DNA of 27,236 bases, taken from positions 1 through 27,236 of the forward strand of contig JAHBMJ010001681.1 of NCBI GenBank assembly GCA_018398765.1, written 5' to 3'. The stretch's first letter is position 1, and each line of letters starts with the position of its first letter. Below, one piece after another: positions 1 through 23,818 of the stretch. The stretch is from Chromera velia. Taxonomy: Eukaryota; Sar; Chromeraceae. The position numbers and the translations under genes were made by a program. A model generated the notes under the pieces. That model was not told the origin of the DNA. It saw nothing but the letters and a program-made list of their open reading frames with translations, and searched no databases.

Positions 1-990
1 CCTCTTCCCAAGTTACCCTTTTTTTCTTCGTCTCCCCCCCCCCCCCCCCTTCCCTTCGTTTTTCCCTTCCCCCCCTTCCGACCTCTGATCCATCCGACTT
101 GCAGAGGGACGAAAGAGGACCACGCGATCCTGCAATGAATGTCTTGGGCCGGCAGGTTCTGACGGGGTCTACGTACGGGTCTGTGTATGCATGAAAGATT
201 TTTGTTTTGCAACCAGGAATTGGTCTAGGAAATGAAATTCGAGGAGCGCCAAGAGGTGCACACAGAAATGATCAGGAAGATGGACAGGCACCCAGCGGCT
301 GGTGGAGGGAAGGAGCAGTGCCGCGCACATTCCTGTCTCTTTCCCTCACAGAGACTGACTGACACTCTCGGTGATGCTCCCGCTACACGCTGAGCTGTGA
401 CGCCAAAACTCCGAAATCCGTTCTCGTTTTGCAACCCACTCAACGAACTTCTGACCTGCAGGTACGCGCACGCATGCAGATGCAGATGGCGCACTGGACA
501 GCAAGAGCCGTCTGCACAGAGGGCTGCGCTAACATAGACAGGACTGCCGTCTTCCCAGTAGTGTCTCTTCGAAACGCATGTGCAACACAGAGACACACCG
601 ACACAAGAATGGGAGTGCTGATAGACTTACCAGCATTATGTCGCACAAAGGCCGTGGGTGCACTTGCGGATGTAGACGGGGTCCCGAGACCTATCAAGAG
701 AAGCTTTCCTCCATTCATCCTTTGGCACAGATACCCTCTTCTCTATACACCTGTCGAACAGAATAGCACACCTTTCTACATTTTCCGAGGCCTAAGTTTG
801 CACCCAAAGAATTCATCAGACGTCTTTTCCCTCTTTGTGATTCTGTACCTGTGAGCATTGCTCAGTGATCTTTGTTCGTTGAATGAATCTGAGCCTTGAA
901 TCGGAGACGGCGGAGATGGCGTCCGATCTAAAGGCTATTAAATATGCAGCACGTGCGGCGCGCCTCGCAAAGGTGCATGGCTCCAAAGTG
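1..990. other. Region without recognisable gene
   Basis: No reading frame here has a recognisable domain, and the open frames on both strands look like chance. The only marked feature near the left end is a run of 16 C at 34–49 inside a pyrimidine-rich stretch. It could hold the 5' UTR or promoter of the bestrophin-like gene, or the end of a gene outside the window. I see no tRNA or rRNA. Confidence 0.5.
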
Positions 991-1037
991 TGCATGCATG
1001 CATGGCGACGCCGCATCCATGCAAGACTGCATGCATG
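991..1037. promoter_or_regulatory. TGCATGCA motif cluster upstream of bestrophin-like gene
   Basis: Overlapping TGCATGCATGCATG is at 991–1004 and TGCATGCATG at 1028–1037, with a GTGCATGG at 973–980. TGCATGCA is a known ApiAP2 transcription-factor site in apicomplexan parasites, so these may be promoter elements about 240 bp before the proposed start codon at 1275. CATGCA words also occur elsewhere in the window, for example at splice acceptors, so a role here is an inference. Confidence 0.35.
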
Positions 1038-1274
1038 ACTGACCTTTGCTTACTGTTGACAACCGAATGTCGCGTGCACATCAGTGGAAACGTCGGAAAG
1101 ACACATCAAAACAGCTCAAAGTTCAAAATGCGTACATAAATACATACACACACGCAAATACACCAGAGAAAAACAGTGGCTTGCAAGCTGAGAAGCCTTC
1201 TCGAAGGGTCTGTGTCTGTACACATCAACTCAATCACATCCACGACAGAGCGACAACATCCTAAAGAAGTCACG

Positions 1275-3679
1275 ATGAGAAGGCGCCTGGGAGGAAGTGA
1301 AATCGCAATCGGGGCAGAGAAGGGATTCGGTGGGGGCACAAACCCACACGTGCTCTCATACATTCCAAACATCAATGTGATATGGGCCCCCTTGCTTCGG
1401 AGAGAGCTGAGTGTCTGCAGTTCTCTGACGATGTGGTCCCGTCACATCGTCTGGTTGCTCTACGCCTGTGCGTTGATGTTGGTGATTGGATACGTGGGCT
1501 TTCCTGACGGTGAGATGGGAGGAGGCCCTGCGTGTGCAGACGGAAAGAACATTCGAGTCTGTCAGTTGGAGGCTCTGCTGGCGGACTCGAAGGCCGAGTT
1601 CCGTTTTCTCATTGCCTTCGTGCTGGCTGGGTATGTTGCGGGTACAGTGGCCATGTGGGGCATCAGAAGAAAGAACTACGCATCTCTGTGTGGAAACGCG
1701 CGGAACCTCTCCATTCAGATACTCTCCTTCGTGCCTGTGGAACATCAGGACGAGCAGCTGATGCAGACGAGGAAGAACCTGAGCAGGTCAGATGCGAAAG
1801 TGAATTGTCCACATGCATGCTCTGCCTTTTGGCGGCACAAAGGTCAGTCAGTCTGTGACACACCGAACCCTGTTCCTTTACAGAAGTGCTTCGTCATGTA
1901 GTTTTCAACTTAGCGTCACACAGGATCACTGGGCAGAGACAAAGACATTTTTTGGTGTTGGTAAGCCGGAGTGGACGGCTGTCGGTAACTGACAGCAAAG
2001 TGTAAGCGTTCCAACATGAATACCTATGTACCTTCACGCAGGTGGGTGATGCTCGCGTTTGAGTTGGCATTTCTGAAGGCCAAAGGAGCGATGGACAAGG
2101 AGGAGGCAAAGGCGTACCTTGTGGAGGAAGGGCTGCTGGTTGAGGGGGAGTGGGAGAATATGGTGGTGGGAGACCGGCACTCGTCTGTGTTCTTCTGGAT
2201 CCAGACACAGTTGGCAATCCTGTCAAGAGAGGGCAGGATAGAACAGGAATTCGTGGCGGCTGTGTCGCAATCGGTAGGTCTTCTTCTCTTGTGCAAGAGT
2301 AGCCGATTCATTACCGGGATTCAGGGAGCGACAGAGGGGCGTATTTTCTTTTTGGCTCTACAGCTCACCATGTGCAGCTGGCTGACGGTTTTCATTTTCA
2401 AATGTACTGGTTCAGATCGTGTGCAAACTGATCCCGTCAATACGCTTAGTTTTCTCTATTTTTTCTGTCTGTTGCACGCTCAGGTCGGGAGTATGCGGGG
2501 CCAAGCGAACGACTTGATGTCATCTCTGGACAGAGACAAACCCTATCCCTATGTTGCCCTGTGCGGAGTTTTGGTGATGATCAACATCGTGATCTTCTCT
2601 ACGTGGAAGGGGGTCCTATGGTGAGGGGAAGGGGTGTGGGTGTCTTCTGTCTGCTTGGGTCTTCTTCCAATATCAGAATTCTGTGCTTACCCCTTTTGGA
2701 AGAGCAGAAAACAAAAGAACAGTAGCCCTGTCTGCATGTTCACATGCAGGTGCAGTGCAGCAGTCCTTCGATCACCCATACATGTACTCATACACACACT
2801 CTACATGCACACATGCACGGATGGATAATTGTTCGAACGTGCGCATGCAGGTCCGTCTGGTTCCACACGTTTGGGTCCAAAATCGTGGAGCAACCCAAAC
2901 TCTGGGTCGATATTCTCGTGCTTTTCACCTGGAACCTCTCCTATCAAGTCAGCCTTCGTTGCTCAGTGAGAGTGGAATGACGCTGCCGCTACGAGAAGTA
3001 CGTTTTCTTTCTTTAATTTTGACTTTCAATGAGACGATGTACGGCATAGAAATACGTGGACATGACCAGATGCATAGACACTCCTCAGTGACTCGCCGTC
3101 TGTTTGAACCCGCTTGCTAACTGATGCGGAGAGACTCGGTACGTCTCTATGCGCTTGTGCGTTCATCTGAGTGTTGTTGTGACTCGAGCTGTGCAGGCCC
3201 TCTACGAACTCTCCTACGTCCTCTACAATCCATTCGGAGACAGACTTGTCGATGTGGGACATGAGACCATCGGCAGGGGTATCCGGCGTCTCTCCTTCGC
3301 CCTCGCAGAAGGCCACGTGCTCCCCCCCGCGTTGTCCCTCTACCCAACCCCGCCTGCTGAGAAGACCAAACCGCCGAGAAACTTCCAAGGAGGGGATAAA
3401 AGCCCAACCAGATACTCGGGGGGGGGCAGTCCCACCAGACAGGGCCAGGGGGGGGAGCAGACGCCACAGGGGTTCTCTGACGTTTCCCACCCGGTGCCCC
3501 CCTCCCAGTCTCCTCAAATCGGAAGGAGCCCCCAGGCGCTCCCGTCTCCTTCTGCACCCAACACGGAAAGAGTCAGTCAGTCAGCCAATCAGTCAGCCAG
3601 GCAGGCAGTCGGTCGGTCGGTCGGTCAACCGACTGCTTCCTTGTGGGGACGCCACGTTCCGCTCATACTAGGTGTGTGA
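1275..3679 (+). CDS. Bestrophin-like anion channel (5 exons)
   Basis: Exons are 1275–1786, 2042–2273, 2484–2620, 2851–2947 and 3197–3679. They join in frame to 486 residues; all introns are GT–AG. The product has four hydrophobic segments: about residues 57–76, 110–130, 269–288 and in exon 4. The family landmarks are an N-terminal WAPLLRREL (like W..L..RE in bestrophins), RKNLSRWVMLAFELAFL after segment 2, and NPFGDR at 337–342 after segment 4. Bestrophins form pentameric chloride or bicarbonate channels in membranes. The acidic Ca-clasp that follows NPFG in animal BEST1 (EDDDD) is absent. The tail after about residue 360 is Pro/Ser/Gln-rich and has no domain. Uncertainties: translation could start at 1176 (33 residues longer) or in an upstream exon; exon 4 could end at 2965 instead of 2947 (6 more residues, same phase); intron 2 (210 bp) is open in frame. 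No other family fits as well. Confidence 0.75.
3569..3634 (+). repeat. GTCA/GTCG tetranucleotide tract inside the bestrophin-like tail
   Basis: A degenerate (GTCA)n–(GGCA)n–(GTCG)n tract lies inside the last exon and is read as a Ser/Gln/Ala/Arg-rich stretch. A 4-bp unit changes frame on each step, so length changes would alter the last 30–40 residues of the protein. Confidence 0.7.
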
Positions 3680-4220
3680 GAGAACGGTCTCACAATTAGC
3701 TAGAGATCAGGACACCAAGATGCAAACACACAGACCCATGCGCATTCATTTCGTCGTTCCTTCCTGCCTTCTTTTCTTTTATTGTTGCAAGCTCTCTACG
3801 TACGTTGCTTTTCGTCTCAACTGATCGATCCGTGCCTGCTTCGCTGGACGTGCCAGCTTGTATTCACATCGGTAGCTGCAGTGTGTTCTTTTCTATCGCT
3901 GTCTGCCCGTTGCTCTACTCTCTCTATAGGGCAAGACTGCATCTGTCCCCGTTGTCTCCTTGCAGGGCGTGAAGGTGGCTGACGATACACATTTCGTCTA
4001 ACGATCACCACAATCTGCTTTCTTCTGCGGGGTTCTAGCCGCCCCGAATCTAGCGAGCCCTACCTCTTGCTAGCTGGTTTGTCCGCGTATCCGGACTCTA
4101 GCTTCCTTAATGGTTGATCGATCAATCACTTCCTGATTTTCTGGCGCGCGAGACGCAAGACGCCATCCCGGAAGGCCGGACCCTGACGCCTACGGCCCTG
4201 AAAAGGCCTTTGCACCGTCG
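3680..4220. other. Intergenic, no gene seen
   Basis: This follows the bestrophin-like stop codon and probably holds its 3' UTR. An open frame at 3782–3982 has no domain, no good splice context and ordinary composition, so I do not call it. Confidence 0.5.
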
Positions 4221-4418
4221 AAATCCTAGGGAAATCATAGAGAAATCAGCGGGAAATCATTGGGAAATCTATGGGAAATTTCGGCCCAGATTTCCCATCA
4301 ATTTTCCCTAGAATTTTCCATGGATTTCCCTATTATTATTAAAGATTTCCCTCGGATTTCACTAGAATTTCCCTAGGATTTCCCATCAATTTCTCACAGA
4401 TTTCCCTACGATTTCCAT
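4221..4418. repeat. Inverted minisatellite with GGGAAATC units
   Basis: From 4221 to 4281 the + strand carries about five loosely spaced copies of GGGAAATC or GAGAAATC. From 4287 to 4418 the complement, GATTTCCC, recurs about nine times at a similar 13–16 bp spacing. CCTAGGGAAATC at 4227–4238 has its near-exact complement around 4366–4378. The whole is an imperfect palindrome around 4282–4286. It is not telomeric repeat of the TTTAGGG type. It may be a hairpin-forming transposon end or an unstable satellite. Confidence 0.7.
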
Positions 4419-4742
4419 ATTTTTTTGTAGGGTTAACAAGCCCAGCAACAGGTGAAGAACTGTTTCTTGAATTTTGAATGTTAGAAAAAAGATAGCAAGA
4501 GTGTTGGAAGGGGTATTGCATTAAGAACTCTTAGGTTTTTCACTAGGTTTTTCAACTCTTAGTTCAACTCTATTAGGAAATCTTTGATTCTTTTTTTTTA
4601 ATGTAATGCAAGGTCTCTAGCAATTAAGGTCTTAGTTTGTTTTTCAAAGTTTTTTGAACCTTTTTTATTCGGAGCGTCGACCACGATACCACAGTTCGAT
4701 CATTCCTGTTAATTTATATTTAAAAAATTAAAAAAATCTAGT

Positions 4743-4787
4743 AAGTTGGCTGCTGGGAGTATAGCTCCACTCTAGCAAAGCCAACTT
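4743..4787. other. Small hairpin with tRNA-like core
   Basis: AAGTTGGC at 4743–4750 pairs with GCCAACTT at 4780–4787. Inside, TGCT pairs with AGCA, and GGAG pairs with CTCC around TATAG. The core GGGAGTATAGCTC resembles the start of a tRNA, but no anticodon or T arm follows. It could be a relic of a tRNA-derived SINE or a chance stem. Confidence 0.3.
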
Positions 4788-4829
4788 CATTCATTTATTC
4801 ATAGCGGGAAGGCCCTAGGGCGGAACATA

Positions 4830-5001
4830 TCAATCAATCAATCAATCAATCAATCATTCATTCATTCATTCATATATAGTGATCTAAATTAACATAGTTA
4901 TATCATACTACAATCCTAGCTGCAAAAATGAATGAATGAATGAATAAATGAATGAATGAATAAATAAATGAATGAATTGATGAATGAATGCATGAATGAT
5001 G
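4830..5001. repeat. Inverted AATC/ATTC and AATG microsatellites
   Basis: A (CAAT)n tract then (CATT)n at about 4830–4873 is followed, after some 50 bp of AT-rich sequence, by (AATG)n with AATA variants at 4927–5000. The (CATT)n and (AATG)n blocks are complementary and could fold into one hairpin. Confidence 0.75.
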
Positions 5002-6325
5002 CTACCCTTCATAGATTGTCATGCCAAAAAAATATCACATGTCATAAATGAATCAGAAAGTGTTGCGTTACATAAATTGTTCTCATGAATTGGTCTATTT
5101 ACAGTGGCAATCATCGAGCTGTAGCAGCCAAAGAGCCAAGCCTGTCAACGAAGACCACACATGAACCCAAAAACCGCTTGCAAGGTGCCGGAATGGCAGA
5201 CTCGCAGAGATTGACTCCCACGCTTCCTGCCCATCAGCCAGTGAGTGCGTAGCCCCCTTTGTTTGAGAGCTACGGGAAGAACCCGTCTGCGTTGCCTGCC
5301 CGTTTGGACTATTGACTCCGAAACTTGGGGTGGGGGTGAAGGATCGACAAAGGGGTCCCCGGCTCGGTCACCTTCTTGACCCCGAGAGGAAAGAGAGAAA
5401 GAATGAAGAGGAAAGTGCATTTGCTTTCAGGAAGGTCGAGGGCGAGAAGCAACAGGGAAACAGATCACCTGTGCTCGCAAGATGCTGTTTGTTAAAATAA
5501 GAAAAGAAAGCGACAGTCAGACCACCTGAAGGAAGGGTTTAGGGCATGGACGATTCCGCCAAGACCCTGGAATGAAGACTGCATGAGCATTCTGATTGAT
5601 TTTTTGTGCTGCTCCTTGTCCCATCCCTCGAAATTAGTCAGTTAATGAAGGGCACGCACAAGCACAAGGATGAGCAAGGTAGGGAGGGAGAAAACTGTTC
5701 AGAGTCTATGTGTCAGTGGAGAGAGGGGCGGAACAACAAGACCTTCCATCGGTCCCAAGAGGTAACCCTGCTCCCTCCCTCATCATGTCAGCACCTCCCA
5801 ACCCCCCACCTTTCTGCTGGCAGAATTCAGGCCCAAGGGACCGATCATCGAAGAGATCAATGACCATCCCCAAAAGAGAAAAAAGAGTGAGTTCACAAAC
5901 AAAAAGACAAACAGTCAAACAAAGTGACAGGGAAGAAAAAAGAGAAGACGGGAGCGGGAAAAGGGGATCGAGACGAGTGAAAAAGGAAATAAAAAAGGGA
6001 CTCTCGACTGTCTGGGTTCAACCTGCTTCATTCTCTCCCGAAGTTTCTTCACAGACAGAAAAGCCACCTCAACCAAAACCACCACGCTAAGACCTTTTTC
6101 CTGCTGCCTTTTTCCTTCCTTCTTTCCTTCCTTCCCTCCGTCCTTCCTTCCTTTTAGATTTGTCCCAACAACCTTTGAGCAACCGTGTCCTTCACTCTGC
6201 TTCAACCCCTCCCTCCAGCCCAAATGCTCCCTTTCCTTTCACAACACCCAAACTTGCATCCATCCCTACTTCCTCTTTCATTAGACGTGCCTGCCTGCCT
6301 CGCTTCATTCTCCCCATGTTTCTCA
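5002..6325. other. Intergenic; likely 3' UTR side of the kinesin gene
   Basis: No convincing gene lies here. The open frames at 5145–5420, 5312–5500 and 5706–6223 overlap on both strands and show no domain. The stretch next to 6325 should contain the 3' UTR of the minus-strand kinesin gene. A CCTT/CTTT pyrimidine tract lies at 6111–6155. Confidence 0.5.
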
Positions 6326-9300
6326 TCATCGCATTCCCACGTGAGGCCCCGGCACCCCTCCCTGCGGTGGATGATGCTGCACTAGGTGGGTGGGGGGGTG
6401 AATGGGCAGACCTCCGTGTGGGTGTGGGGGAAGGTTGGCATGTACCGCAGGGGTGATGAAGGGAGCTTGGGGACCCATCGGGGGTGCGTGTGGGTTTGCA
6501 GGAACTAGATGGGGGGGCGGGTAGGGACCGGGGACTGCGAATGAATGAGGGGCTGCATAAAGGGTGTGTAGGGATTTTTGGTTGCCCTTCTCGGGGGCCA
6601 TGGCATGTCCCTGCGACGCCTGCAGAAAGGCTCTTCTGCTGCCGTGGTCGGAAGAGGAGGAATGCTGCATGAAGCGAGACTCGCCCATGAGGTCCGTGAA
6701 GGGACGCGGGCCACGTGCAGACAACTGTGGGTGGCCCCCCTCTCTCATCATCATCAGGGCTGCAGCTGAGTTTGTGTTTGCAGACCGATGGAGATCTGCA
6801 AGAGAGCCGGGACCCACGCGGCCTGCTGGAGGCGCATGACGGCGGTGTGTGGCGAGGGCTTCTGTGTCTGTCACGTCGTGCGGACGGCGGCGCGTGAGGG
6901 ATCCGTGTGTTAGAATTTCTTCGTTTGAGTGGCCGAGGTCCGATGTTCGGAGATGAGTGGCGGAATTGGTTCTGGGAAAGTGAGTGTGCCCCGGGGCAAC
7001 GAATGCGAGAGTGGGGGAGAGAGCAGAATGGGCAGGGGCCTGAAGCCGCCCTATGGCATTGAAAGGTGCGGGCTGATAGGAGATACCGCTGGGTCTTTCG
7101 GCCTCCTGATGGTGGGGGTGGAGGGATTCTTGGGCTTTTCTCTTGGGCAGACTGGGTTTTTTGATGGGAGGAACCTTCGTTCCTTCTTTGGGTGAGGCTG
7201 TGGTGTCCTCCTCCTCTTCCTTCTCTGCTGTGACTGCAGGGTTCTCTCCTGTTGCCTTCTCTTCTCTGTGGGGATCCATGTCTGCTGTCTCATTGTCTTC
7301 CTCTTCTTCTTCTTCTTCTACGTGCTCCTCCTCTTCTTCGTCTGCAGACTCCTCGCGCAAGGCTCCGTCGCTCTTCTGACGCCTCAAGCGACTGCTTCTC
7401 TTGCTCTCTCTCTGCCCCCTTTCTGTCTGAAAACCGGGCCCACAAGTCTCTTCATGCGTCTCTTGACGGGAACGAAAACCCGACGTTGGCAGGTGGACAA
7501 GGGACGCATGGTGACGTCCTTTCCCTCCCCTCCCTTGTGCGTTGGAAGAAGACAAAGGAGGGGACTGACGGGGACCGGCCCGTCCGGGGCCGTTCTGACG
7601 TCCACGTCCCTCTGCCAATCTGCCGGCAGCCAAAGGGTTGCTGCTGTGATTTGCCTGACGGACAGGGACGAAGTTTCTTGCCAGTGTGGGTGAGAGATTA
7701 AGCTCTGAGCGGCGTGGGTGAAGGCTGATATTGGCGGCACGGTTTCGGCCGCACCGTGCGATTTTGTCTCTTTTTCCTCTGCCTGCTGCTTTTGTTGAAG
7801 ACCCCGGGAGGATTTTTGAAGACTGGTGCGGTGGGGCCTCTCTCACCTTTTCCTTCTCCTTTCCTTTCCGTGCCTCTGTGTAAACAGTCGTCGCAGGAGG
7901 AAGAGAAACCTTTGAGCGTCCCTCTGCCGCGCCTGACCTTAATTCCATTTTGGGTGCTGGAAGTACGGGGGAACGGGGAGACAACGCACGGCCACTGCTC
8001 AGGGAGGCGGCTACTGCAGAGGTCCCTCCCGCTCTCGAGCTTCCTTTGCTTATCTGAGAAATACAGTCGGGCAGAGGGGGGGAAGCGGTGAGGGAAGGAG
8101 AGACAGGGGATTCGTGGGGGGCCTCTGTTCTCTCCCTGCGTGGGGAACACTGGGACAGCATTGGAATGGGGGGGGGACGTTTTGCAGTTGCCTGAGACTT
8201 GACGTTTTCTGCGGTGGTCCCTTCCTTGCCCTCCTGATCTCTCCCTCTCTGCACTCTCAAGGGAGGAGGGGAGGACTCAGCCATAGGACTGGAAGCGGAA
8301 GCAGAAGCAGAGGAAGAGGACGGGACCTCCGGGGAATACAGTTGAAGCTGAGCCACATGTGCAGGTGGACCTCCAGCAGGAGGCTGTGTGACGGGGTGGT
8401 TGCGCTGTGGAGAGGGTGTGCGGGGGTGGTTTGGGGGAAGATCGGGGGACTGGTGACGTTTGCTGTCGGGGACGTCTGGCTTGGAACTGGGGAGCTTGGA
8501 GGGGGCGTTGGCATTCGTGCTGGATGGTGCTGAACGTGTTGCATGGCTGTTGTTGCGTATTTCTCCTGAAGAAGAATCGTGAATACGGCTGGGAGGTCGG
8601 AATTTGTGAGCTGGTTGAGAGGGAACGTTGTGGTGTGATGTTGGGTGGGATGGCGGTATTGCCTTTGGGAGGTGTGCGCGTCGTGAGGGGGCGACAGGGG
8701 CGACCGCGTGGTGAGAATGAGAAGTGACAGCGGCAGGGCCGCCATCGAGACGGGAGGAGGAGGAGGGCTGTGGCTGTTGTGTGTGTGTCCGTTGTGATGG
8801 CAGAAGGCGGGTGGCAGCGGATGCAACAGGCGGATTGAGGGGACGAGGTCCGGGGCCTCCTCCTCTGTGAGGAAGTCCGGAGGCCCTGTGTGAGTGAGTT
8901 TTGCCGTCTCTGTTTGCGTGTTTCTCTTTCTCTTCTTCAAGCCTTCGCGCCGTGCGCGGTGAAGAAGCAGAAGGGATACCCGAGTGGTATGGGGGTTGTT
9001 TGGCCTGCCGTGGAGACGGTAACGGATTTGGTTTGCTAGAAGACTCATGCTGCTGCCCCCCGCCCCCTCGTCCACTTTGTCCCCGACCTGCTGCTGCTCT
9101 TGGAGGAGGATTTTGTGGAGGGAGGGAGAGCCGCGGGATCTTCGGACGCAAATGTCCACCCTGCTTGGCAGTAGAGGGTTGGGCAGTGCTTGGAAGGCTG
9201 GAAGGTTGGGATTTGGATGGCTGCTGTGTGGCGGTATCGGATTCAACGGACGGCTGAGAGGGGTCTATGGAGACGCCGCGTGAGACCCCCCCTTTGATAG

Positions 9301-11634
9301 AGCCTCCAGAAGGGGCGGCATCAGAGGGCAAAAGCCCATCAGTGTCGCCTGAATGCTGCGACTGCTCGATGGACATCAAACGTGATACCCCTCCCTTCGG
9401 TGTGTTACCAAAATTCGGGGTGTCTGACCTGGATTTCACCGATACAGCTGTCAGCGTGCGTGAAGCGTTGTTCGATGAATGACGCGACACGTCCGCAGAC
9501 CCGGACGAACTCGGACCCCTCTCTTCCCCACTTAATTTCAAAGAAAGGGGAAGACGACAGGGGTGATTAGAAGCCGTCTCGTTGACAGGAGGCAGAGACG
9601 GCACAAAGTCTGCACCCCCTGTGCCGAAACAACCCGTCCCCCCAAGCCCTCCTTGGGAAGAGGAGGAGGAAGGGTCCGCCAGGTCGAAAGTACAATCGGG
9701 ATTGAAACGGTCGAATGTTGCAGTGGAAAAATTCCCCTGAACCACTGACTGTAACGCACCCCCCTGCTGTCTCTTCAGGCTTCGTGCCGATGAAGGACGA
9801 GACGTTGTCCCCACCCCCCCTGCAGCTGCAGAAGAAACTGCAGAGGCAGCTGCCGCTCCAGTCGTCTGTGCCTCTGATGGCAAAACAGCAGGTGTGTCGG
9901 CATGAGAGGGCCGACTCATTTCGGAAGAGGAGTGAGGTTCTTCCCTCTCTTCCCCTTCTCTTCCCTCTGACTCGTCACTCTCCGCTTCGACCTCCTCTTC
10001 CGAATCTTCTCCACCTTCCACATCCGAAAATTCACCCTCTACCCCACCTGCCATCCCTGGAACGCAGTCATTCTTCTCATCTACTTTGTTCTCCCCTCCA
10101 TTTCCATTGGAATGTATGCGAACGTCGCCCTCCCCCGCTGTGACGCACACAGGCGCACTCACTCTCTCACCCCCCCCACGACTCTGCACTGTATCTACAC
10201 CTTCTCTCTCCAGCTCTCCCAACAGCATGATCGAAGATGCTCTCTCAGTCCCCCCCTGTCCTTCCTCTTTCGATCGACTCCTTTCAGAGATATCTTTCGG
10301 ATCTCTCTGCGTGCAGACGCGGGAGGCGCCAGAGGGCCGCTCTCTCTGAGGAGAGCCCCGGCGGGGGGAGGGCGCAGGCGCACCAGGGCCGGAAACGTCC
10401 CGGTTGGCGTTCTGGGAGACGGAGACGTTCCTCCCTCCTCCCCTTTCCCCTTGCTCCCTCTGATTCGTTCTCGGAGACGCACACGGACCTCTGGCCTTGC
10501 ATGCGGATGGAATGCCCTTTCCGACAACGACGCCCTTCTGATTCTCATGCGATCGGACTTTGAGGTTGGATGCCGGCTTGGACGACACGGTCAAATGATT
10601 CGGGTGGTTGACCTTCCCCAAACAAACCTCCGATACGTACCGCCTCAAGCTCAGGTTCTCGTGCTTCATTCGCCGCATCTGATCGTCCTTGTCGAGCAGC
10701 TGCCGTTGCTGCGCCGCGCTCATCTCCTTAAAGCGCTTCATCTCAAGCAGCATTTGCTGCAAATACGACGCAAAAACAGAAAAAGGGAAGAAAGAAGTCA
10801 GTACCTCAAGAGAGAGAACACCTCGTCAGAAAGAGACTGTCACATCCGAATTTCACAAAAGCAAGACACGGAGAAAGGAAACAAGGACACCAGCAAAATA
10901 GACCTGAGAGAGTGAAACAAGCAAAAACGGAGGAAAAAACTGACGTCATAGTCTCTCCCCTTGGTTGCTTTGCCGAGCTCCACTTTGTTGACTCTCTGTG
11001 CGAAGTGCAGGGAGTTGGCCGTCTCTCGTAGGTCCTTCTTCAAGGGAGACACCTGAAACAAAAAAAAAGAAAAGGAGGGGGATGAGGCACGTAGACGCAT
11101 GGAGGCAGGTAACAAAAATCATCCCGGAAGAGAAGCCAACTACAGCCCGAACCGGGCCTGACTTCAAAACTTCTCTCCCCGCACACAATCCGTTGGGGGG
11201 CTTTTGCACTATCTTAGAACCCCGGCTCCATGCCTGTTTCACAGGAACTTGCAGGGCTCTTTTGCTTTTACAGTAGAAACGTTGGGGGAAATGTTCGCAC
11301 TGAAAGAAGAGACCTCAAAATTGCAACACTGCAGGTAGCTCCTTCCGTTCAACTGTGTCGATTTGGTCCAAAAATGACAGACCTGAACAAGCATGAGAGT
11401 CTTGCTTTCGCCCTTTAAAGAGTCCTGCAAGAAGATTGAGTGAGACAGGGGGGAAGAAAATCTACGAACGAAACAGACCCCAAAAGGCGATGAAGCACAA
11501 TCAACTCTTCCGGCCCCCGCACACTTGCCCGTCTCCCTTCTGATGATTGAGGAAGGAAAGCGTCGGGATGCAGCTACACAATCATCGAGCAAAACGATTT
11601 GGAAAATTGGGGTTGGGTGGCAGACAGATCCATT

Positions 11635-11671
<37 letters not shown>

Positions 11672-14600
11672 GGACATGGAGAGGTGGGAGTGTTTATTGC
11701 CTCATCGATCTTGGTGGAAAAATCTTTTTTCACTCTCACCAGCACAGCCCCGGAATGCCAACGCACTGGGAGTCCAAAGTAGCAAATACGTTGTAATCGT
11801 AATCATAGGCAGACACAAAGACAATTGGACAATTACTCAAGACAGACGAACACAAACAAATGCAGCTCTTGGAAGCGAATCACACGTATGTTGGTTTTCT
11901 TTTGATTCTTTCTTTGACTTCACTTCAGACTCACCGAGAGCAAGTGCGTCAGCTTTGAATCTCTGTATGGTACGTGATTGGCCTTTTGAAGCAGTTTCTG
12001 TATCACGTTTCCGAGTGTGGACAAGCTCGTGTTGATGTGTTTCGTCTCCTCTAATCGGTTTCCTTCCGCCCCCGACTCCGACACCCTTTCTGATCCTGCC
12101 AGATCAACCAGGTTCAACTTCCCTACAAATTTCGACAAACAAACAGCTCTTTCCTCTTCTCCTGCAAAATTCGTCGTCTGTCCCCTCACTTTAGTCCTCC
12201 CCCTTTCCCTTCCCTCCTCGACTGCTGATAAATTACTGATGTACTTCCCTCCCACAGAGATTGGTTTCTCTCTCTCTCTCGCTGTCAACGGCGCTGCTGC
12301 AGGCAACGGAGGGTGCCCAGACAACCGCGGCCTGCCGGAAGGACTCGAGGCGCGGTGCACCTTCCGTCCCCTGCCCTGCCGAGGCGGTGGCATTGACATA
12401 CGCCGATCCCTTTCCCTTTCCGGGGCAGCCGCCCCCGCTGGTTGTGTGTCTGTCTCCGGATGTATCTCCACCCTGATGGTGAAGATAAAGTGCGAACGGG
12501 AGGAGTGGTGGTTGATAGAAGTTTTCCCTGTCGTTCGGGTTCGGCTTCCAATTTTGAGCCAGTAATGAGCATCACACCAAGCAGACACGCTGTGCTCTTT
12601 GGCGGTGCAGAAGACACCTCCCTGCAAAACCGATGAAGAACGGGAGAAGTGAGGGCCAAGCGCGGAGGAGGAAGATCGTTTCAAGGGACATGGTGACGAA
12701 GAGGAGAAGGAACAAGACGAAAGCCAGAAAGACAAAAGCAGAGGGGCCTCAAGAAACAGAGAAACGACGTAATACATCCCAACACAAATTGACATAAGGC
12801 ACGCCAGCAGAAAGACGCGCGCAGGCACAAAAGCAGTCGCACACGAACACACACTCACACACAGAGCGACGTAAAAATGAGAACAAGGGAGACATACAGA
12901 AAATCAGACGCATGACGACACTGACAGATACGGAGGTGGACAGGCATCAATGCAAACACAAAGTTAGGACTGACAGACTATGCCGTCTCTCTTTTCTTTT
13001 TTTGGCTGACAGACCCACACACAGACAGACTTTGTGTTTTTGCCACCAAAGAAACAGACCGTCCGAAAAGACAAACAGACAGGTTGATGATGCTTTGCTT
13101 TGACTCACAGGTGTCTGTTGGATTTCGCACGTCTCGTCTGTCATCAGGTCCACCACCTCGTCGTTGTAGATCTCTACCATCGACAGGAAGAATGAGTGTC
13201 GCCTCACCTGCTTCCTCTCCTCTGCCAAACGAAACAGATCCTGCAACGCCAGCACATTCACTCCCGGAGCGTCTATGGACTTGTCGGGAGGCCCGTCCAT
13301 CGTGTAGGTCTTTCCGCTCCCCGTCTGACCATATGCAATAATACAGACGTTAAAACCGTCCAGTACTGTCTGCACAAGAGGCGCCACCTCCCCATAGACG
13401 GCCGTTTGCGTTGCTGTGGGGGGAAAAGCGTGGTCGACCCTGAAGTGGCGCTTTGCCCCCTCTGGCGGGCCTGGATGGTGGCAGTGGGAGGGTCCGGCAC
13501 AGTCGGGGCTCGGGGAGGGACAGCAGACAATGGAGGTATTGGGCATGATGGTGACACAGCAGGTCTCCTTCCTCTCCTTCTCCAAGGGGGTCAAACCTCT
13601 GCATCCATCCATCCATCCATCCATTCGCTCACTCATTCACTCACTCACTCACTCACTCATTCACTCACTCACTCATTCATTCATTCATTCATTCATTCAT
13701 TGACTCACTCATTCACTCATTCATCCATTCACTCAACCCTTCATTCTGGCAGACAAACAGAGGGAGACACGCATAGAGACCAAAGGGATGCAAGGTCGAC
13801 CTTCAGCCTGAAAGGGTAACAAGAGAAAAGAAGAGGGGCAGGGCACAAGATTGGAAAAAAACAGCTCACACAAATCAACTGCTGTAGAGCTCATGCACAA
13901 GCAAAAGCAAGCACAGACCGTAACACAAAGAAAGAAACGAAAAATGACCGACGGATCCCCAGGAAGGACACAGGAAGAGGCGTCGACGAATAAATGTCCC
14001 CATGCAGAAAGAAAAAGGACCAAAGAAAGAAAAGTCGCCGATGGACTGACTGACTGACCGGATCCTCACGAACACCCGGATTCTGCCCCTCAGGTTCAGG
14101 TTCTCGTTCAACAACGCCGAGGCCCTCATCTCGCTATTCTCCAAATGGCGACGGAGAGATTGGATGCTCCGTTCCAAAACCTCAGGAACTTTCCGTAATT
14201 GATTTCTCTGCAGGCAAACACGAACACGCGGGTGAATTAGGATGGCGTGGAGACATCAACACACAGAAAGAACTCAACGGCTTCACGAAGGAATGAAGAT
14301 GGACTCATTTTTCAGAAGAACGGGAAGGCAGCTTGTGGAGACAAGGGAATGAAAGGAACCTCTGCAGGGTGTGCATGGGCAGCATGGGGCAGAAACGCAG
14401 AGAGAAGAAGGCCGCCAAACAAAAGAAGATAAATTAAGCAGCTGGACAGACAGACCTCCTGAAGAAATTGGTCCATCTGTTTTGCCATCTGCAAAACGAG
14501 TGCCTTAGAAGAATCCACACAACTCCCATCCGAAGACAGGACACCTCCCGATTTTCCTCTCCGCAAAAGAATCTGTGAACCTTTTTGGCTTTTCGGTCTT

Positions 14601-16810
14601 GACTCTTCATCCCTCTCCCTCTCCTTTCCCTCACCCGCCGCCCCCTCCACCTCCTCAACATCCGTGTCCGTCCCAGCCAAACGGGAAGACGGTGATAATG
14701 CCTCCGCCTCACCCTTGTGCTCTTCAACTGAAGAAGCGGCAGCTTCAGCCCCCCGAACTACCTCCTCAAAAACGCCCCTCCCCCTCCCGTTTAACTCTTG
14801 TTCAATCAAATTGTTAATTCCCTCATTCCCCCCATCGATGCCTGAAGATGAAGAAAACGACAAAGACCCCCGGCGCGCCGCCTCCATTCCGGTGCCTGCC
14901 GATCCCCCCACCCCCCCCGCAGATGGCACTGAAGGGGAAGGTGCGGATGGAGACCCGGTTTCTGTCTCTCTGTCATTCTCAGTCTCTCCGGCGGCCCCAG
15001 GGGACCCAAAGAACCGCGCGTAAACTTCGGGGAAATGGTCATAAATGGCGTTCAAAAGCTCGTCTAAATTCTCTGCCTCCTTCTCTCGCCGCTCCAGCGC
15101 CGCAGTGGACGCGACTCCCTCGAACGGCCCTTCACCCTCTCCGTTGTTCCCTTGATACTGGCTGGGTGCGAGCGTACCTTGTGTGTAGGAGTTCGCTATT
15201 TGGCTGGATAGGTCGCACGAGGTAGCAGAATGAAGCACCTGAACAGCGCTTGAGACGCCACTCCCCGCACCACTAGCTGAAGACTGGAGACGTTCAGTTG
15301 GGGGTATCTGGACATGCGGGGGTGCTCTGGTGCTTCCGCTGTGAGAGGTCATGAGGGGGATGGATATATGGGGAGGGGGGGGATACAGCCGAGGCGACGC
15401 TATGGGGTGACCTGGTGGTCCCATGGGGGGCGTTGGTGCCGGAGGGGGAAGGACGGAATGCGGCCGTGAGGAGACGGCAGGACAGTAGGTGGAGGGGGGT
15501 GCGCCTGCGTGACTTGAATCTATCGATCTGTGTGTGTTCAAACCGATCACACAGGCACCCCCTCCCATGGGTTGAGAGTGAACAGACGGAGATGGAAGTT
15601 GCGAGGAGTCACTCACAAAGATCGGAATGCGGTGTCTGCCGTCTTCGGCAACGAAGCAGATTTCCATTTTTGTTTGAGGCTTCCCATCCGGATCTCTCCA
15701 GTCTCTGAGGTAGATCTGCAAGGACACGCAGAGACGACAACGCAAGAAGGAACAAACGGATCTCGCTATGCAGTCAGGCAGGCATGTGGACTGGCTGAAG
15801 ACACAACCGGACAGCCAGCCAACCGGGGAAAAAATGAGCGAATTGCGCCATGCCTCATCTGGCCATGCGTTGCTTTACTCTTGCTTTGCTTTTCCCGTAC
15901 CCACCCACCCTCCCACCCGCCCACACAGACAGACCTACCTCAATGTTTGAGTGTTGCTGTACAGTCGGTACTGCGGGTCTGAACTCAATGACGGGGTGTC
16001 TAACAAGAGTCCAGTCAGGGTGCCCTCCCTCTTCTGTAGGTAGTGATGAAGGGAGGGGGGGGGAGGAAGAGGAAGAGGAACAAGAGGAAGCGGAGGCAGA
16101 GTCGCCCCCCCCCTCCCCTCGGGGCTCGTCTCCCCTCCTGTACCAGACGAGGTACGAGTACTTAAAAAAGTTCACGGGGGTTGTCCTCACAACGCACTGC
16201 ACGGACAGGACAAGGAGAGGGAACAAAGGTCAAGCTTTCTTTTTCCCGGAACGTCACAACGCTGTCGTGCGTCAGAGGATGGAACAAAAGATTTCAGTCG
16301 GCAGGGTGCAGAAGCAGAAAGAGCAACATTCGGGGAAGATTTGTCGCCTGTTCGTATGTTTTCGATGTGAGAGCGAGAAGCAGAGGTTTGCGGGCACAGA
16401 AAGTCCGCAGCAGAAGACACTACAACACAGAACGAGGGGAGTTGTCGAAGAGTCAAGTTTGAGTAGAAGGTCGGCAGTCTCATGTCCAAATCAACGAAGT
16501 GGCTTGAAAAGTAAAGCCTATCGACTCACAGTCCATCCCCCCGCAGACTGCTGGTATGCCATTCGAAGGGCATGCCCCTCGTCCCAGTTGCCGTTGGGAC
16601 GGCCATTCTGATCGTCCCATTTGCCGCCAAGAATTTGGGGGGTCCCCACCACGGCAACTGCAGAAGAAAAAAAACCGAGAGAGGTTTTGGGTCTCATGCT
16701 ATATATCGGGAGGAGCTGGAGAAAGGGAAGAGGTGCGGAGTCATAGAGGACGTACCTCTGACAGCCTTTGTGTCCTTGTATTCAAAGTGGATGCACCACT
16801 CGTTGAGCAT
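6326..16810 (-). CDS. Kinesin-14-type motor with N-terminal CBM20 starch-binding domain (10 exons)
   Basis: Exons in coding order: 16810–16756, 16657–16530, 16196–15939, 15715–14456, 14207–14059, 13598–13109, 12621–11935, 11424–11383, 11052–10945 and 10756–6326. All introns are GT–AG and the phases match at every junction, giving 7,608 bp and about 2,535 residues. Order of domains: CBM20 (about 1–140), low-complexity linker (about 180–560), coiled-coil neck (about 560–604), motor (about 605–1055), a short coiled coil (about 1060–1105), then a disordered Pro/Ser/His/Glu-rich tail. The motor has GQTGSGKT (707–714), SSRSH (820–824), DLAGSE (953–958) and YRDSKLT. The neck abutting [11 protein letters not shown] and the ending [12 protein letters not shown] point to kinesin-14, whose known members move toward microtubule minus ends. 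The start at 16810 has an A at −3 and sits at the beginning of CBM20; further upstream exons cannot be excluded. Confidence 0.88.
11640..11669 (+). repeat. GA dinucleotide microsatellite in a kinesin intron
   Basis: About 15 uninterrupted GA units lie within the intron at 11425–11934. On the transcribed sense (minus) strand this is a CT tract, about 215 nt upstream of the acceptor. Confidence 0.95.
13601..13737. repeat. Tetranucleotide array next to a kinesin splice acceptor
   Basis: A mosaic of (CATC)n, (ACTC)n and (ATTC)n fills 13601–13737. On the coding strand it is GAATGAGT/GGAT repeats that run directly into the GATGCAG acceptor of the exon starting at 13598. The usual pyrimidine tract before the acceptor is therefore missing. 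Confidence 0.9.
15939..16810 (-). other. CBM20 (starch-binding) domain of the kinesin, exons 1–3
   Basis: The spliced sequence reads [19 protein letters not shown], then ILGGKW…[10 protein letters not shown], then GGWT, then FFKYSYLVW…[12 protein letters not shown]. This follows the CBM20 β-sandwich plan: first strand, a VVG..P.LG.W.…AL.L block, W.V.LP…FEYKF and a closing W…NR…V. The two aromatic positions that usually contact α-glucan have Trp (NWDEG and DWTLV). The usual NR after the second Trp reads RH. Two insertions are present: about 12 residues in the LG.W loop, and about 40 Gly/Ser/Pro/Glu-rich residues between the YLVW strand and DWTLV. CBM20 domains bind starch or glycogen-like glucans and also occur in laforin and plant dikinases. 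Confidence 0.78.
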
Positions 16811-17693
16811 GATTTCCTTGCGCTCCTCAAGTGTGCATAGCAGGACAAAAGATCTCCAAACGAAATGTATCGCCCAAGCAAAAACCTTGAGCACGCCTTT
16901 ACAGGTCCTCAGGCAGCCATCAACACAAAGACCAGTGCGATAGTACGACCAGAAAAGACGAAGCCAGGCGGTTTGGACGTGCCTGCGAGTACACAGGAAG
17001 AGACTTGATGAAAAACCGCTTCCGCTGACAAGACGAAACACCCTGATAGATCGACAGATTTAATGATTGGTGGCTTCTCGAGGTCTGATCGAAGACACAG
17101 AGGGGCTCGATACATGAAAGATGGATGCTAGATGCGCGACCAAGGTCTCTGTCGCCCCAGCTGTGCAGCCCTTGGCACTGCACAACACACTAACAGTCAC
17201 CACTGTCTGTCAGCCAGACCTCAAAAATTTACGCCCCCTCAACATATACGACGTGATACACTCCGTCTGTCATTACCTGCAAGGGTGAGATAGGGTGAGT
17301 GCCGTGACTTCCATAAAAGCTGAGTGTAAGACACTCGCGAGAAATGTTATGGCGAAATGTAGATGTACTGGGGCCCTTTTTTCAGCGCGGAGCTGCCCTC
17401 CAGGCATACCGATATATCGGTCTGGCCCAAGCCGGCAGCTTTTCATGTTTTCGTAACTGCAGGTGTCAGAAAGCCGATTATTAATAAGAAAAGGAAAATC
17501 CACAAAATCGGATTCTCAAGACATGGATAGTAACAGTAACCCGATCTACTAAGGAGACTACTTGCTGGTTGTCATTGAAGTTGTGAAATTCCCCGTATCC
17601 AGTACAGCAGCTACTGATCAGAGTGGTGCCGGAAGCCATTCCGAGCCATCAATAAGGTTTAACAAAGAGAACACTTCTCCGAAAAATCTGTTC
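16811..17693. promoter_or_regulatory. Divergent intergenic region between kinesin and ankyrin genes
   Basis: The kinesin start (minus) and the ankyrin start (plus) face away from each other, about 880 bp apart, so promoters of both probably lie here. I see no clear TATA box. A possible extra exon at 17169–17284 encodes LKNLRPLN, close to LKNLRPFK in the later ankyrin exon at 19009–19041, and begins after a TGTGCAG acceptor. It is too weak to call. Confidence 0.4.
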
Positions 17694-18662
17694 ATGAATC
17701 TCACACTGATCATGACGAAGCCTTCTGCCTCCGTCTCTTCCTTTCCGATCATGGCTCCGTGGAAACAGGTAAACTGCATTCTGCATTTAGAGCTGGTGAC
17801 GTGTGGTGGTCTTGTCTTGAGGTCCACTCTTTCGCTTCTCCTGTCGCCGTCTCCGTTTTCCCGTCTCTTCTTCAATATCTTCCTGTCTCCCGAGCCTCTC
17901 AGACCGTCATTCCCCGTTTCGTCACTTCCCTGTGGAATCCATAGAATCGCCACATTCCAGCTGAAGAAAAAAAAATCCCTAAAGTGTCATGGTCATCGGT
18001 GTGACTGTTCTGTCGATCTGTCTTTCACCCTTCTTTTTCTGTCAACGCAGAATGGCGAGACCGCAGGGGGTATGCCGCCTACCAGCCCTCGGGCCTTCAA
18101 GCACACTGCGGTGAGTGTAACTCATTGACACTTAGCAGACTGTAGTCGTCTTCTGTGACAATCGCTGTCGACTGGGTGATGCCACAAAAAATACATACTC
18201 AGGTGACACGTCTGTTGTATCGAGCATGGGTTTTTGGTAGCTACCCGGAAGCACATCAATTTCCTGGCCCAATCCTAACGAAGAGGAAACCTTCACCGAA
18301 AAGTCTTTCTATGCCATGAACGTGACTAAGTCTTCTGTCTTCGTCTGTTCTGTTCCATTTATGGCTCTGTTGGATTCTGTAGAGTCAATGGCGTGTGATG
18401 CCCTCGTCTCACCCTCCACGCTTCTTCTTCTCTCCTCCTGTCACGGTGTCTCCTTTTGCCGTCTCCTTTCCGTGTCTCTTCTTTGTGTCCTGTCTCCCAT
18501 CACGCTCAGGCCGTCATCCTCCTGTCGCGAGCGGCCTGTTTCTTGTTTTAATTACTCATTCTTTCGAGCTCTCTTCCGCACCTTCTCTTTCCACCAACGC
18601 AGGAGGGTGAGGCGGCCAGGTTTGTGCCCCCTACCAGTCCTGAGGCCTTCACGCTTACTGCG
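17622..18662 (+). repeat. Tandem duplication of a two-exon 5' cassette
   Basis: Unit 1 has an exon-like block ending at 17768 and a 60-bp exon at 18051–18110. Unit 2 has the matching block ending at 18378 and a 60-bp exon at 18603–18662. The 60-bp exons encode GMPPTSPRAFKHTA and FVPPTSPEAFTLTA and are flanked by the same AACGCAG acceptor and GTGAGTG donor. The first blocks both have a Met-Asn (17694; 18316) followed by similar Ser/Val-rich sequence and a phase-0 donor. The spacing is 552–610 bp. Confidence 0.75.
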
Positions 18663-19831
18663 GTGAGTGCATGTAGCATTCCACACTTCAGATCCTTTCG
18701 ATGAGATGAGCAGCTAGGTGAGAGAGAGGTTCCAACAAGGACGCTTACAAACTCACACCATACCCCCGTGCAGCCTTTTTTTCGAGATGATTGATGGATG
18801 TGCTCACACTCCGAGAAAGACTGAAGGATCGGCATCTCTAGACACATAGAGACCATGCAAGCTTCTCTATCTTATTTGAGTACATTCAAGCTTTTTTCGC
18901 CATGCCTGCTTTTGCAAGTTTTATTTGTACAGGTTTCTCTCTTGAGGACGGTTCGCTGATTCTCTCCCTACATTTGCGTGTGCTTGCTTGCTTACTTGCG
19001 GGCTGCAGATGATTTTGAAAAACTTGCGCCCATTCAAACCGGTGAGTTGTTGTCAACGCTTTGTTCCTTTCTTCTTCGTACCGGAGGTCTGGAAGGCAAG
19101 TTTGCCAAAACAATTTGAGGTCTGCTATGTGTGTGAACCTCTTTCTGTATCTACGCGAGCGCATGGCCGCACTCCTGTTTTGGGTCCCTGCATGCAGTAC
19201 TGACCCTTGAAGAAATCTATTCTCCCTTCTGCCCATCAAGCCGTCTCGCTTGTTTTTGAATGACTGTTCGCAGGTCTCCCCTGAAAGTTTGATGGCGGCC
19301 ATTGACAGTGGGGATGCGGACGAGCTCTTGAATCTCCTACGGCTTGGCGCAGACCTCCACGGGCTTGTGGTTAGTCTCTCTCGACATGCACAAAGCCAGC
19401 AGTATTGCAGTTCAACCAGGCACCTCAGTTGGCTACAGCGACTTTTCTTCTGTGGGCGCATGGAGAAAGAGAGGAGAGAGGGGACGGGAGTGGGACTAAT
19501 CATGCTTTGTTCGTCATGCAGAATGAGAAAAGGCGGGAACAATGTGAACGAAATTTCGGCGGCAGACAGTCTCCTTCTATCAGTGCTAGGCCGCGCTCAA
19601 AATCTGGTGAGGGATCTGATTCTGTGTGTCAATGTAAGCACTCATGTTTTGGCTCTGTAAGAATGCGAGGAGGACTTCATTCTGTTTGCACGATGGCTTG
19701 TCTTTGTACAAGGAACTGTCGTTTCTTATTCATGTACTCAGATGTCCCTCTCAACTTGTTCACGAAACACGTTTTTATCCATGAAAGGAGGCCAGCTCTG
19801 TGCGGCATTGCATCCTTTCTTCACGTTTCTT

Positions 19832-19863
<32 letters not shown>

Positions 19864-22359
19864 ACTTGGCTGCCTGCCTACTTGGCTGACTGGCAGGACT
19901 GTTGGGTTCCGAAGTCTCCATCTGCCCTGGGGTCTCCTATCTTCTTTCATCTGGGTCCTATTCACCTGGCAGCACGGAGGGGGAGTGAGGAAGCGGTGGA
20001 TACTCTGCTGAGGTTGGGGGGGAGGCTGGAGGCTCGTGCGGGGGTGAGTCTATAGATTCTCCTTGTTTGTTTGTTTGTTTGTTTTCCAGTCCCAGCACAT
20101 CGGCAGCGTTGGAGCCGGATTGTGCCCAAGTGAGGTTAACGAATGATGAATGACTGGGACTCTCAAAAGAAATTCTCTAAAAAACGCCAAGAGGAGGTCT
20201 CGAAGACATCCATGGTCGCCCCGAGTGTACAGATAATCAGGACCCTAAAAATCAGAAGTGAGATTATCTCATTGCCTCCCCAGCTGTCTCAATCCGCACA
20301 AATGCATGCGTGCATGCAGAATGGGTGGACGCCTCTACACCACGCAGTCTCACAGATTCAGAACGTGCATCTGCCAGAGAAGCTCCTCGAGAGGGGCGCA
20401 AATATTCACGCAGAAACAAAAGTAAGTCGCAGAAGGCGGGGGTGGGCAAAGCACAGGCAGAAGCATCAGAGTAGGAGTGGAGTGAATGTGTGCGTCTTGT
20501 TGTCACCTGTGTTCCTCTGTCTCGCCGTATTCACCTGAATGCTTCTCTGTGATTGAGGCACTACCCGGTTGACCACCTTGGTGCATTGCTAACTAGATGA
20601 TGGAGAGATAAAGGGAGATTTTGTTTTTGTTTGTTCGGGTCTGGAATCTCTGTGTAAGTCTGAGTGGTAAGAAACATGTCAATTGAGAAAGCGAAGCCAA
20701 TCCGGACTCTGCCTTTGTTTGTTTGTTCGTTTGTGCAGGATGGAGAGACTGTTCTGGTTGTTGCTGCCTCTTCACGATGGGACAATTTTGTAGTCGTGAA
20801 AAGCCTTCTCAAGAAAGGGGCCAGCCTCAACAGGGGAGCATCGGTAGGCGTCGGCATACATCGTGAGCGAGTGTGTGCTTTTTGTAGCTGCAAGTGTTTT
20901 GATTAAACTAGACCAGAAAATGACACATCAGCTTGAAGGCAGAACATTCCATTTTGTCCTTCCCGTGCACGGAAGTGGTCGGAATTCGAATGACCAATTC
21001 TTTAGTTTCTTTCTTCCTTCAATTATCAACCTCTTGCTAGCTTTCTCTGTAGCATCTCTCTCCATGCAGACTTGATTTGCTCTGTCGCTACCCTTTTCAT
21101 CTTCCACTCACTGACTTTTCATCCTCTCTTCCTTCCACCTTTTCTCGCTCCTTAAATTCTTTGAGGTGAGAGAGCACAAACTTCTTCCGCTCTACGCTTC
21201 CCCATTTCTGCTCTGTTCGATCCTCTGTCACACGCAAAACACAAACAAGTCTTTAATCATTGCTTCGCGTAGACTCTCCAAACACCGCCAGTCAGGTCCA
21301 TGCACCCGTCCACATGCATGTGCTCTGTCTCTGCAGCTGTACCCACAGATGTCGGCGCTCCATTGTGCCGCAAAAAGGGGGCACAACAAAACCCTTGCAG
21401 TTCTTGCTGACAAGTTTGGAGAAGAAGTGAATGCCACAGGACAAGTCGGTTTTCTCTTCTCCTTTCGTGCTTCCTTCTGTTCTTGTTCGAGCCAAGAGAG
21501 AGTGTTGGGTCTCAGGCTCATCATGCGCGAAGGAAATCAGCATAAGGCGCTCTCGCAGCAGTTTTTTATTTTTTCAAACACCATCTGTGTGTTTTCTCGT
21601 GTAAGAACACTCGCACTACGTGTGGGTGGCATCTCTTTCTACTTTCATTTCCTGATCCCGTTGAAAGCAGGCGTGCAAAATTTGTCAGCAGGTTTTGCTC
21701 CTTGAGAGAAGTGGTCATTCTATTCCCCTCGTACTTTTCTGCAGGCGCTGAAGACACCGCTCCATCTGGCTGCAGAGAATGGTCACCAGGGAATCGTCCG
21801 GTGGCTGGTGAAGGAAAAGGGGGCGGCAGTAGAGGCACAAGACGAGGTGCGTGAGTCACCCAAATGCACTTCAGGGGCATAGATTCCTTCTGACCTTCTT
21901 GTGATCTTCTTGAACACTGTGCATGTATTAGTGTGGACATTCGTTTTTGTATTTTCTCCATGGTGTCAATCTGTCGTCCGAATGGACCATGACTGCTGTG
22001 CAGGTCGGTAAAACACCGCTCCATTTGGCTGCTCAAGCAGGACACAAACAAATCGTCCTGGAACTTGTGAGGGAAATGGGGGCCCAATTGATGCCCAGAG
22101 ACAAGGTGGGAGGGAGACGTTTCTTTCTCTTGATTTTCTTGTGTGACTATCGGTTTCGTTTGAGGTGTCACCTATCAGACTGCATCAAGAACAAACAAGA
22201 GAGAGGGAGAGAGGGAAGAAGAAGGAGAGAGAGAGAGATGGTTGGGGAATCAGGTCATTCATGCCCCTGTAACTTTCTCTTTCCCCACTCCCTCCTGCCA
22301 CCCCGCCAACCTTCCTTTGCTCTCGTCTAATTCCGAGGACAGATTTCACGAGCGTGTGA

Positions 22360-22396
<37 letters not shown>

Positions 22397-23484: not shown

Positions 23485-23689
23485 CATTATGTGGAAGTCT
23501 GGAAGATGAATGAATACTACATCATCAGTGATAAAAAATTTGTTTGCATGATTTAGACGCCTTCAAGTTACTGTTTTTGCCAGCTAGCTTACCAGCGGCA
23601 TAAAAATTAGTATGTATTACGGCTCTAGTTATGGCTATATATAAGTCAACTAAACACTTAGTTGTAATTTCTACTACTGCTACTACTCT
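23485..23689. other. AT-rich sequence after the ankyrin gene
   Basis: This probably contains the ankyrin 3' UTR. Composition falls sharply to AT-rich and ATTAGTATGTATTA-like and CTACTA words begin. I see no gene. Confidence 0.5.
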
Positions 23690-23818
23690 AGTTACTACTA
23701 CTACTACTAACTACTTCTGTATTAGTATGCTACTTATCATCATCATGCGCCATTGCCACCAACCTATAAATAGGCGTCTAACTTTCGATCGGCGGGCTGA
23801 CGGCGGCAATGTATGAGG
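23690..23818 (+). repeat. 130-bp direct repeat, copy 1
   Basis: It begins AGTTACTACTACTACTACTA and passes through CCTATAAATAGGCGTCTA and GATCGGCGGGC to GGCGGCAATGTATGAGGCA. Copy 2 lies at 25096–25224. It abuts the 5' edge of the LINE reading frame. The shared TATAAATA could be a TATA box. Confidence 0.85.

Follow-up and report, generated by a model that had tools for sequence, protein, structure and literature searches.

Membranes, protein complexes, RNA and chromosomes are the usual cargoes of molecular motors. Some plant kinesin-14s carry a malectin-like domain, which is also of a carbohydrate-binding type but differs in fold from CBM20. CBM20 itself is carried by STBD1, where it forms a tether on an autophagy receptor and not on a motor, and the starch of alveolates is cytosolic. 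STBD1 is named in the abstract of PMC12785236. According to excerpts of PMC2714694, laforin, which occurs in Toxoplasma and other protists, has its CBM20 at the N-terminus; the module is joined there to a phosphatase, whereas the CBM20-like head of the Chromera protein described here is joined to a motor.

Among the kinesin-14s, plant KCH proteins such as OsKCH2 likewise combine a central motor with an N-terminal tethering domain (excerpts of PMC12692232), with the difference that the KCH head binds actin, whereas the Chromera head resembles a glucan-binding module. The same excerpts describe a rice kinesin-14 mutant in which starch accumulates in the chloroplasts, explained in that paper by mislocation of SWEET11, and the mutant is not a precedent for direct starch binding. 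Starch metabolism is presented in the available portion of PMC3716720 as ancestrally cytosolic and shifted to plastids only in green plants, and excerpts of PMC4501334 include starch granules among the possible trafficking locales of chromerids. A Chromera comparison for Toxoplasma KinesinA has been published (PMC13387612), and the terms CBM, starch and carbohydrate occur nowhere in its available text. The original prediction knew of no described CBM20 kinesin; no such fusion was met in the titles and abstract openings of the open-licence PMC papers listed for kinesin with CBM20, carbohydrate-binding modules, starch or amylopectin granules.

Gene structure

The window, meaning the whole 27,236-nucleotide stretch of Chromera velia DNA analysed here, contains a predicted gene on the minus strand (16810-6326), whose ten exons form one frame of 2535 codons followed by a final stop. 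As had been claimed for this locus, the ten exons join without an internal stop at the following coordinates, giving 2535 aa, with all introns of the GT...AG type in the splice model.

Exon 1, 16756..16810, minus strand: aa 1-18; the start codon, then the opening strand of the CBM20-like domain (splice model)
Exon 2, 16530..16657, minus strand: aa 19-61; CBM20-like core, with 12 residues inserted (splice model, Pfam scan, profile alignment)
Exon 3, 15939..16196, minus strand: aa 62-147; FKYSYLV strand, low-complexity insert of about 36 residues, W123 (splice model, Pfam scan, residue listing)
Exon 4, 14456..15715, minus strand: aa 148-567; IEIYLRDW, the final CBM20-like strand (by eye), then a low-complexity linker of about 370 residues up to the neck (splice model, codon usage)
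Exon 5, 14059..14207, minus strand: aa 568-616; kinesin-14-type neck (aligned with the Ncd neck)
Exon 6, 13109..13598, minus strand: aa 617-780; motor with P-loop GQTGSGKT (Pfam scan, phmmer against PDB, residue listing)
Exon 7, 11935..12621, minus strand: aa 781-1009; motor, including both switches and about 105 residues inserted as a loop between them (Pfam scan, phmmer, residue listing)
Exon 8, 11383..11424, minus strand: aa 1010-1023; motor (splice model, phmmer)
Exon 9, 10945..11052, minus strand: aa 1024-1059; end of the motor (splice model, phmmer)
Exon 10, 6326..10756, minus strand: C-terminal tail (1476 aa) in which Ser, Pro, Ala and Gly are abundant (splice model, Pfam scan, residue listing)

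The order of the predicted protein is N-terminal domain, long flexible-looking linker, neck, central motor and long low-complexity tail. The ATG of exon 1 is the first in-frame ATG downstream of an in-frame stop, and a further spliced exon may lie upstream. No signal, transit or plastid leader is apparent by eye in the start MLNEWCIHF, which fits a cytosolic protein. Within intron 5, directly before the P-loop exon, a short tandem GAATGAGT-like repeat is visible by eye (window 13600-13760, minus strand). Another CBM20 exon of the genome (L065) starts one codon off the start of exon 2 and in the same phase, a likeness of intron position that is too weak to serve as evidence.

Kinesin motor, neck and tail

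Taken together, neck and motor (492 residues) match Pfam Kinesin at E=5.9e-94 and Microtub_bd at E=3.4e-29. The motor is complete, with the P-loop GQTGSGKT, switch I NHHSSRSH and switch II DLAGSE, bearing out the intact kinesin motor of the original prediction, and an insertion of about 105 low-complexity residues separates the two switches. A phmmer search of the motor against PDB returned 153 distinct sequences at E<=1e-20; among the best 60 of these 153, the closest are KIFC3 (229.7 bits), Ncd (197.6), KIFC1 (195.7) and KCBP (184.1), with KIF3B trailing the kinesin-14s at 180.2 bits. Directly N-terminal of the motor, the neck aligns with that of Ncd in phmmer, the kinesin-14 neck consensus being LxGxIRVFxRxR. 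By its PDB match scores and its neck, the predicted motor is kinesin-14-like, in line with the class assigned to it beforehand.

The likeness to KIFC3, Ncd, KIFC1 and KCBP lies in the motor sequence and in the neck ahead of the motor. The switch insert and the N-terminal CBM20-like domain set the Chromera protein apart from these four, as does the position of its motor: a C-terminal motor is usual, though not universal, for kinesin-14, whereas here the motor is central and followed by 1476 aa. No Pfam family was found in this tail at E<=1.

CBM20 resemblance of the N-terminal domain

Scanned against Pfam, residues 1-211 returned no family at E<=1. For the first 158 aa, unmodified, CBM_20 was the sole one of 24,736 families at E<=10 (E=0.22, 11.8 bits), in a scan where the HMMER filters discard most matches above E of about 0.1, and this score falls below the curated cut-off of PF00686, 23.3 bits; two unambiguous CBM20s from this genome score 42.6 and 75.6 bits. 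Cutting out the 36-residue low-complexity insert raised CBM_20 to 13.6 bits, and additional removal of the 12 residues that separate LG from NWD raised it to 24.7 bits (E=2.1e-5, profile columns 16-77); the loops were excised post hoc, chosen with the alignment already seen, and only thereby is the threshold passed. In the loop-less version CBM_48, which we take to be a related starch module, came second at E=0.1 and was the sole other family across the three versions scanned. The last third of the domain, including the IEIYLRDW strand, was assigned by eye. An NCBIfam scan of the 158 aa gave no match at E<=10. The three matches of the N-terminus to PDB in phmmer (E 1.2-1.7) were weak and unrelated, and were set aside.

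Because the excision was post hoc, the resemblance was tested by a loop-tolerant profile alignment combined with shuffles. The profile comprised 11 CBM20 sequences, nine from the genome and two from PDB, with loops nearly free under one hand-set gap cost. The N-terminal domain scored 31.0 bits, a value reached by none of 600 shuffles in a first run and by one of 20,000 in a second (mean 14.8, sd 2.9, max 32.05). All 374 real open-frame segments in a comparison set, each 120-158 aa long, stayed below it, with a maximum of 21.8; some of these segments overlap between loci, and some were drawn from the window itself. The corresponding Gumbel estimates were 4e-4 from the shuffles and 7e-5 from the segments. 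Other profile methods returned low scores: hhalign of the single sequence against the genome CBM20 profile gave probabilities of 3.1% (local) and 0.3% (global), and an HMM built from the same genome sequences gave 9.4 bits for the domain, with a best stretch of 5.0.

With profile models, the spliced protein thus matches the kinesin family decisively but falls below the CBM20 cut-off unless loops are cut. The CBM20 head of the original prediction stands in part: its resemblance exceeds chance, but the unmodified domain does not reach the curated score. We read the domain as a divergent CBM20, which is likely but falls short of proof.

Putative glucan-binding residues

We take W616, K651 and W662 of CGTase to be the residues of binding site 1. 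The profile alignment and residue listing place the first site-1 Trp at W43, and the second corresponds to W123 only if the exon-3 insert is spanned as a loop; the loop-less Pfam match extends there. The Lys position aligns with Ser75, with K73 two residues away, leaving predicted glucan binding uncertain. Other CBM20s of the genome carry Lys, Arg or Gln at that position, as judged by eye from translations. In laforin orthologues, the conserved Trp and Lys are needed for amylopectin binding, which their mutation abolishes (excerpts of PMC2714694).

Coding signal and the exon 4 bridge

Codon usage was scored in two ways. Scoring A was trained on 42 long open frames from other loci, including overlapping loci, and used the introns of the kinesin gene itself as background, which makes it partly circular; the coding frame topped the three sense frames in 10/10 exons, and intron frames were negative in 27/27 cases. 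Scoring B, with 18 distinct training frames and an independent background (window 1-6000 and 17500-27236), placed the coding frame above the other sense frames in eight of the ten exons, and 25 of the 27 intron frames were negative. The two misses, exons 5 and 8, are both short and are supported by motor homology, while exon 1 was uninformative, a near tie at -0.06. Antisense frames exceeded the coding frame under scoring B in exon 1 (-0.03 vs -0.06) and exon 5 (0.05 vs 0.00), and one antisense frame did so in exon 3 under both scorings (0.325 vs 0.265 in A, 0.19 vs 0.13 in B). With the independent background, codon evidence is weaker for exons 5 and 8 and stronger for exon 4.

Exon 4 is a single open frame of 1260 bases running from the end of the N-terminal domain to the neck, and the chance of 420 open codons is about 9e-7 at the intron stop rate or about 9e-8 from composition. 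In sliding windows along this exon, the coding frame was best in 8/10 under scoring A, a rival frame being slightly higher in two within 15595-15296, and in 10/10 under scoring B, with small margins in that same interval. A strong alternative donor lies within exon 4 after 15617, making the linker length uncertain; since it is in phase 0, the fusion would survive if a phase-0 acceptor, for instance the one at exon 5, were used, and a short-linker isoform is possible. The donors at 14456 (gtctgt) and, inside the motor, at 11383 are of one type. Overall, the continuous frame, with the open exon 4 tying the N-terminal domain to the motor, supports the single gene that had been proposed.

CBM20 and kinesin genes elsewhere in the genome

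Searches of the organism's own genome used a 177.8-Mb assembly of 4040 contigs, one of which, C1679, is the window. CBM20 was matched at least 59 times at E<=0.001, never in the exons of the kinesin gene, and the domain is greatly expanded in this genome (for example at L045, L049, L056 and L070). By pattern, CBM20s of the VEPREGQ- or VEVAEG-type occur in 13 of the 35 loci examined. At L047:651-1799 a CBM20 is fused to a GDSL lipase (CBM_20 1.1e-16, Lipase_GDSL_2 2.3e-14). With at least 59 CBM20 matches elsewhere, and at least one of these fused to another Pfam domain, CBM20 shuffling occurs in this genome. In four further loci a CBM20 is followed in frame by CEHG...C..C-type repeats, with pattern counts of four at L054:432-1799, three at L057:1-1401, ten at L058:354-2498 and two at L077; at L064 such repeats are present, but none of them in the CBM20 frame. 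In the repeat loci L054, L057 and L058, the sole Pfam assignment is CBM20.

Motor matches number 53, five of them the window itself, and several rows may represent one gene. No second CBM20-kinesin was found among the 59 CBM20 and 53 motor matches, and the sole contig with both (C3508) has them about 114 kb apart; since PF00686 does not list the window, this search would miss equally divergent heads. In four other kinesin loci (L081-L084, about 9 kb each), the CBM20 profile scored every segment at 21.8 bits or less. Searching the genome with the N-terminal domain retrieved only the gene's own exons and a match on C200 (E=1.43), whose charged, helix-like translation does not look like CBM20 and was rejected. 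Among viral and prokaryote contigs, patterns of the N-terminal domain matched 10 and 21 times, respectively, but tblastn gave no match and no relative was confirmed. For starch or glycogen synthesis, the genome yielded two weak partial GT5 matches of the starch/glycogen-synthase type (26.2 and 25.7 bits, cut-off 22.7), a hint of a starch or glycogen synthase for which contamination is possible, and one weak glycogenin-type GT8 match.

Interpretation and proposed role

The reading we favour, tentatively and just short of calling it probable, is that one gene encodes a kinesin-14-like motor with a CBM20-descended N-terminal head, the head holding alpha-glucan and the motor moving or anchoring it. 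Its main rival accepts the fusion and the CBM20 ancestry of the head but supposes that sugar binding was lost, leaving a protein-binding or self-inhibiting head. This appears a substantial possibility, although below an even one, and is suggested by Ser in place of the aligned site-1 Lys, by the two inserts together with the low CBM_20 scores, and by the laforin orthologues, in which mutated conserved Trp and Lys abolish amylopectin binding (excerpts of PMC2714694); against it, both site-1 Trp residues may persist, W43 and, if the insert is spanned, W123, and the exchange of Lys for Arg or Gln in several CBM20s of the genome, seen by eye, indicates that the position is not fixed. That the N-terminal domain has nothing to do with CBM20, its GNWD...A..M motif having arisen by chance or convergence within some other kind of domain on a kinesin-14-like protein, seems improbable. 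The unmodified score under the curated cut-off, the empty 211-aa scan and the weak hhalign scores speak for it, but chance reproduced the loop-tolerant score in just one of 20,000 shuffles and in none of the real segments, and the only other Pfam family to appear in the three domain versions was CBM_48, in the loop-less one.

A division into two adjacent genes, a small CBM20-like protein from exon 1 to early exon 4 and a kinesin starting in exon 4 or 5, is considered very improbable. The strong donor after 15617 and the weak coding signal in the first third of exon 4 (15595-15296), where two of ten windows are lost under scoring A and margins are small under scoring B, point towards it, but exon 4 stays open for 420 codons with the coding frame best in every window against the independent background, the alternative donor can join a phase-0 acceptor without breaking the fusion, and the donor at 14456 matches the type used inside the motor.

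If the favoured reading of one gene with a glucan-holding head is right, the head would grip alpha-glucan on the surface of cytosolic starch granules, or granule proteins, and the flexible linker of about 370 residues could give it reach. The motor, presumably minus-end directed as in other kinesin-14s, would pull towards microtubule minus ends, and the cargo may be carried or anchored on microtubules, for instance in granule positioning or in the sharing of granules at division. We infer this starch tethering from the type of domain, the absence of an apparent leader, the chromerid starch-granule locales and the weak GT5 matches, all of which favour it, whereas Ser75 at the laforin-type Lys position disfavours it. 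A dedicated starch motor, with granules as direct cargo and the glucan itself recognised rather than a membrane or adaptor protein, seems on balance rather unlikely.

The joining of kinesin and CBM20 would be a new architecture if CBM20 is confirmed. A motor that carries its own polysaccharide-binding head would then represent a new cargo class, and the placement and division of a membrane-less starch store would become testable in algae and parasites with cytosolic starch.

Neighbouring sequences in the window

Two features on the plus strand were recorded beside the kinesin gene.

19211-23314, plus strand: probable multi-exon ankyrin-repeat gene (Pfam Ank in 22856-23314, middle exons by eye)
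23817-24946, plus strand: frames downstream of the probable ankyrin-repeat gene

The first part of the probable ankyrin-repeat gene, 19211-19660, has no Pfam Ank match, and no Pfam family was found at E<=0.01 in 23817-24122 or 24371-24946. The downstream frames may be the end of a non-LTR retrotransposon.
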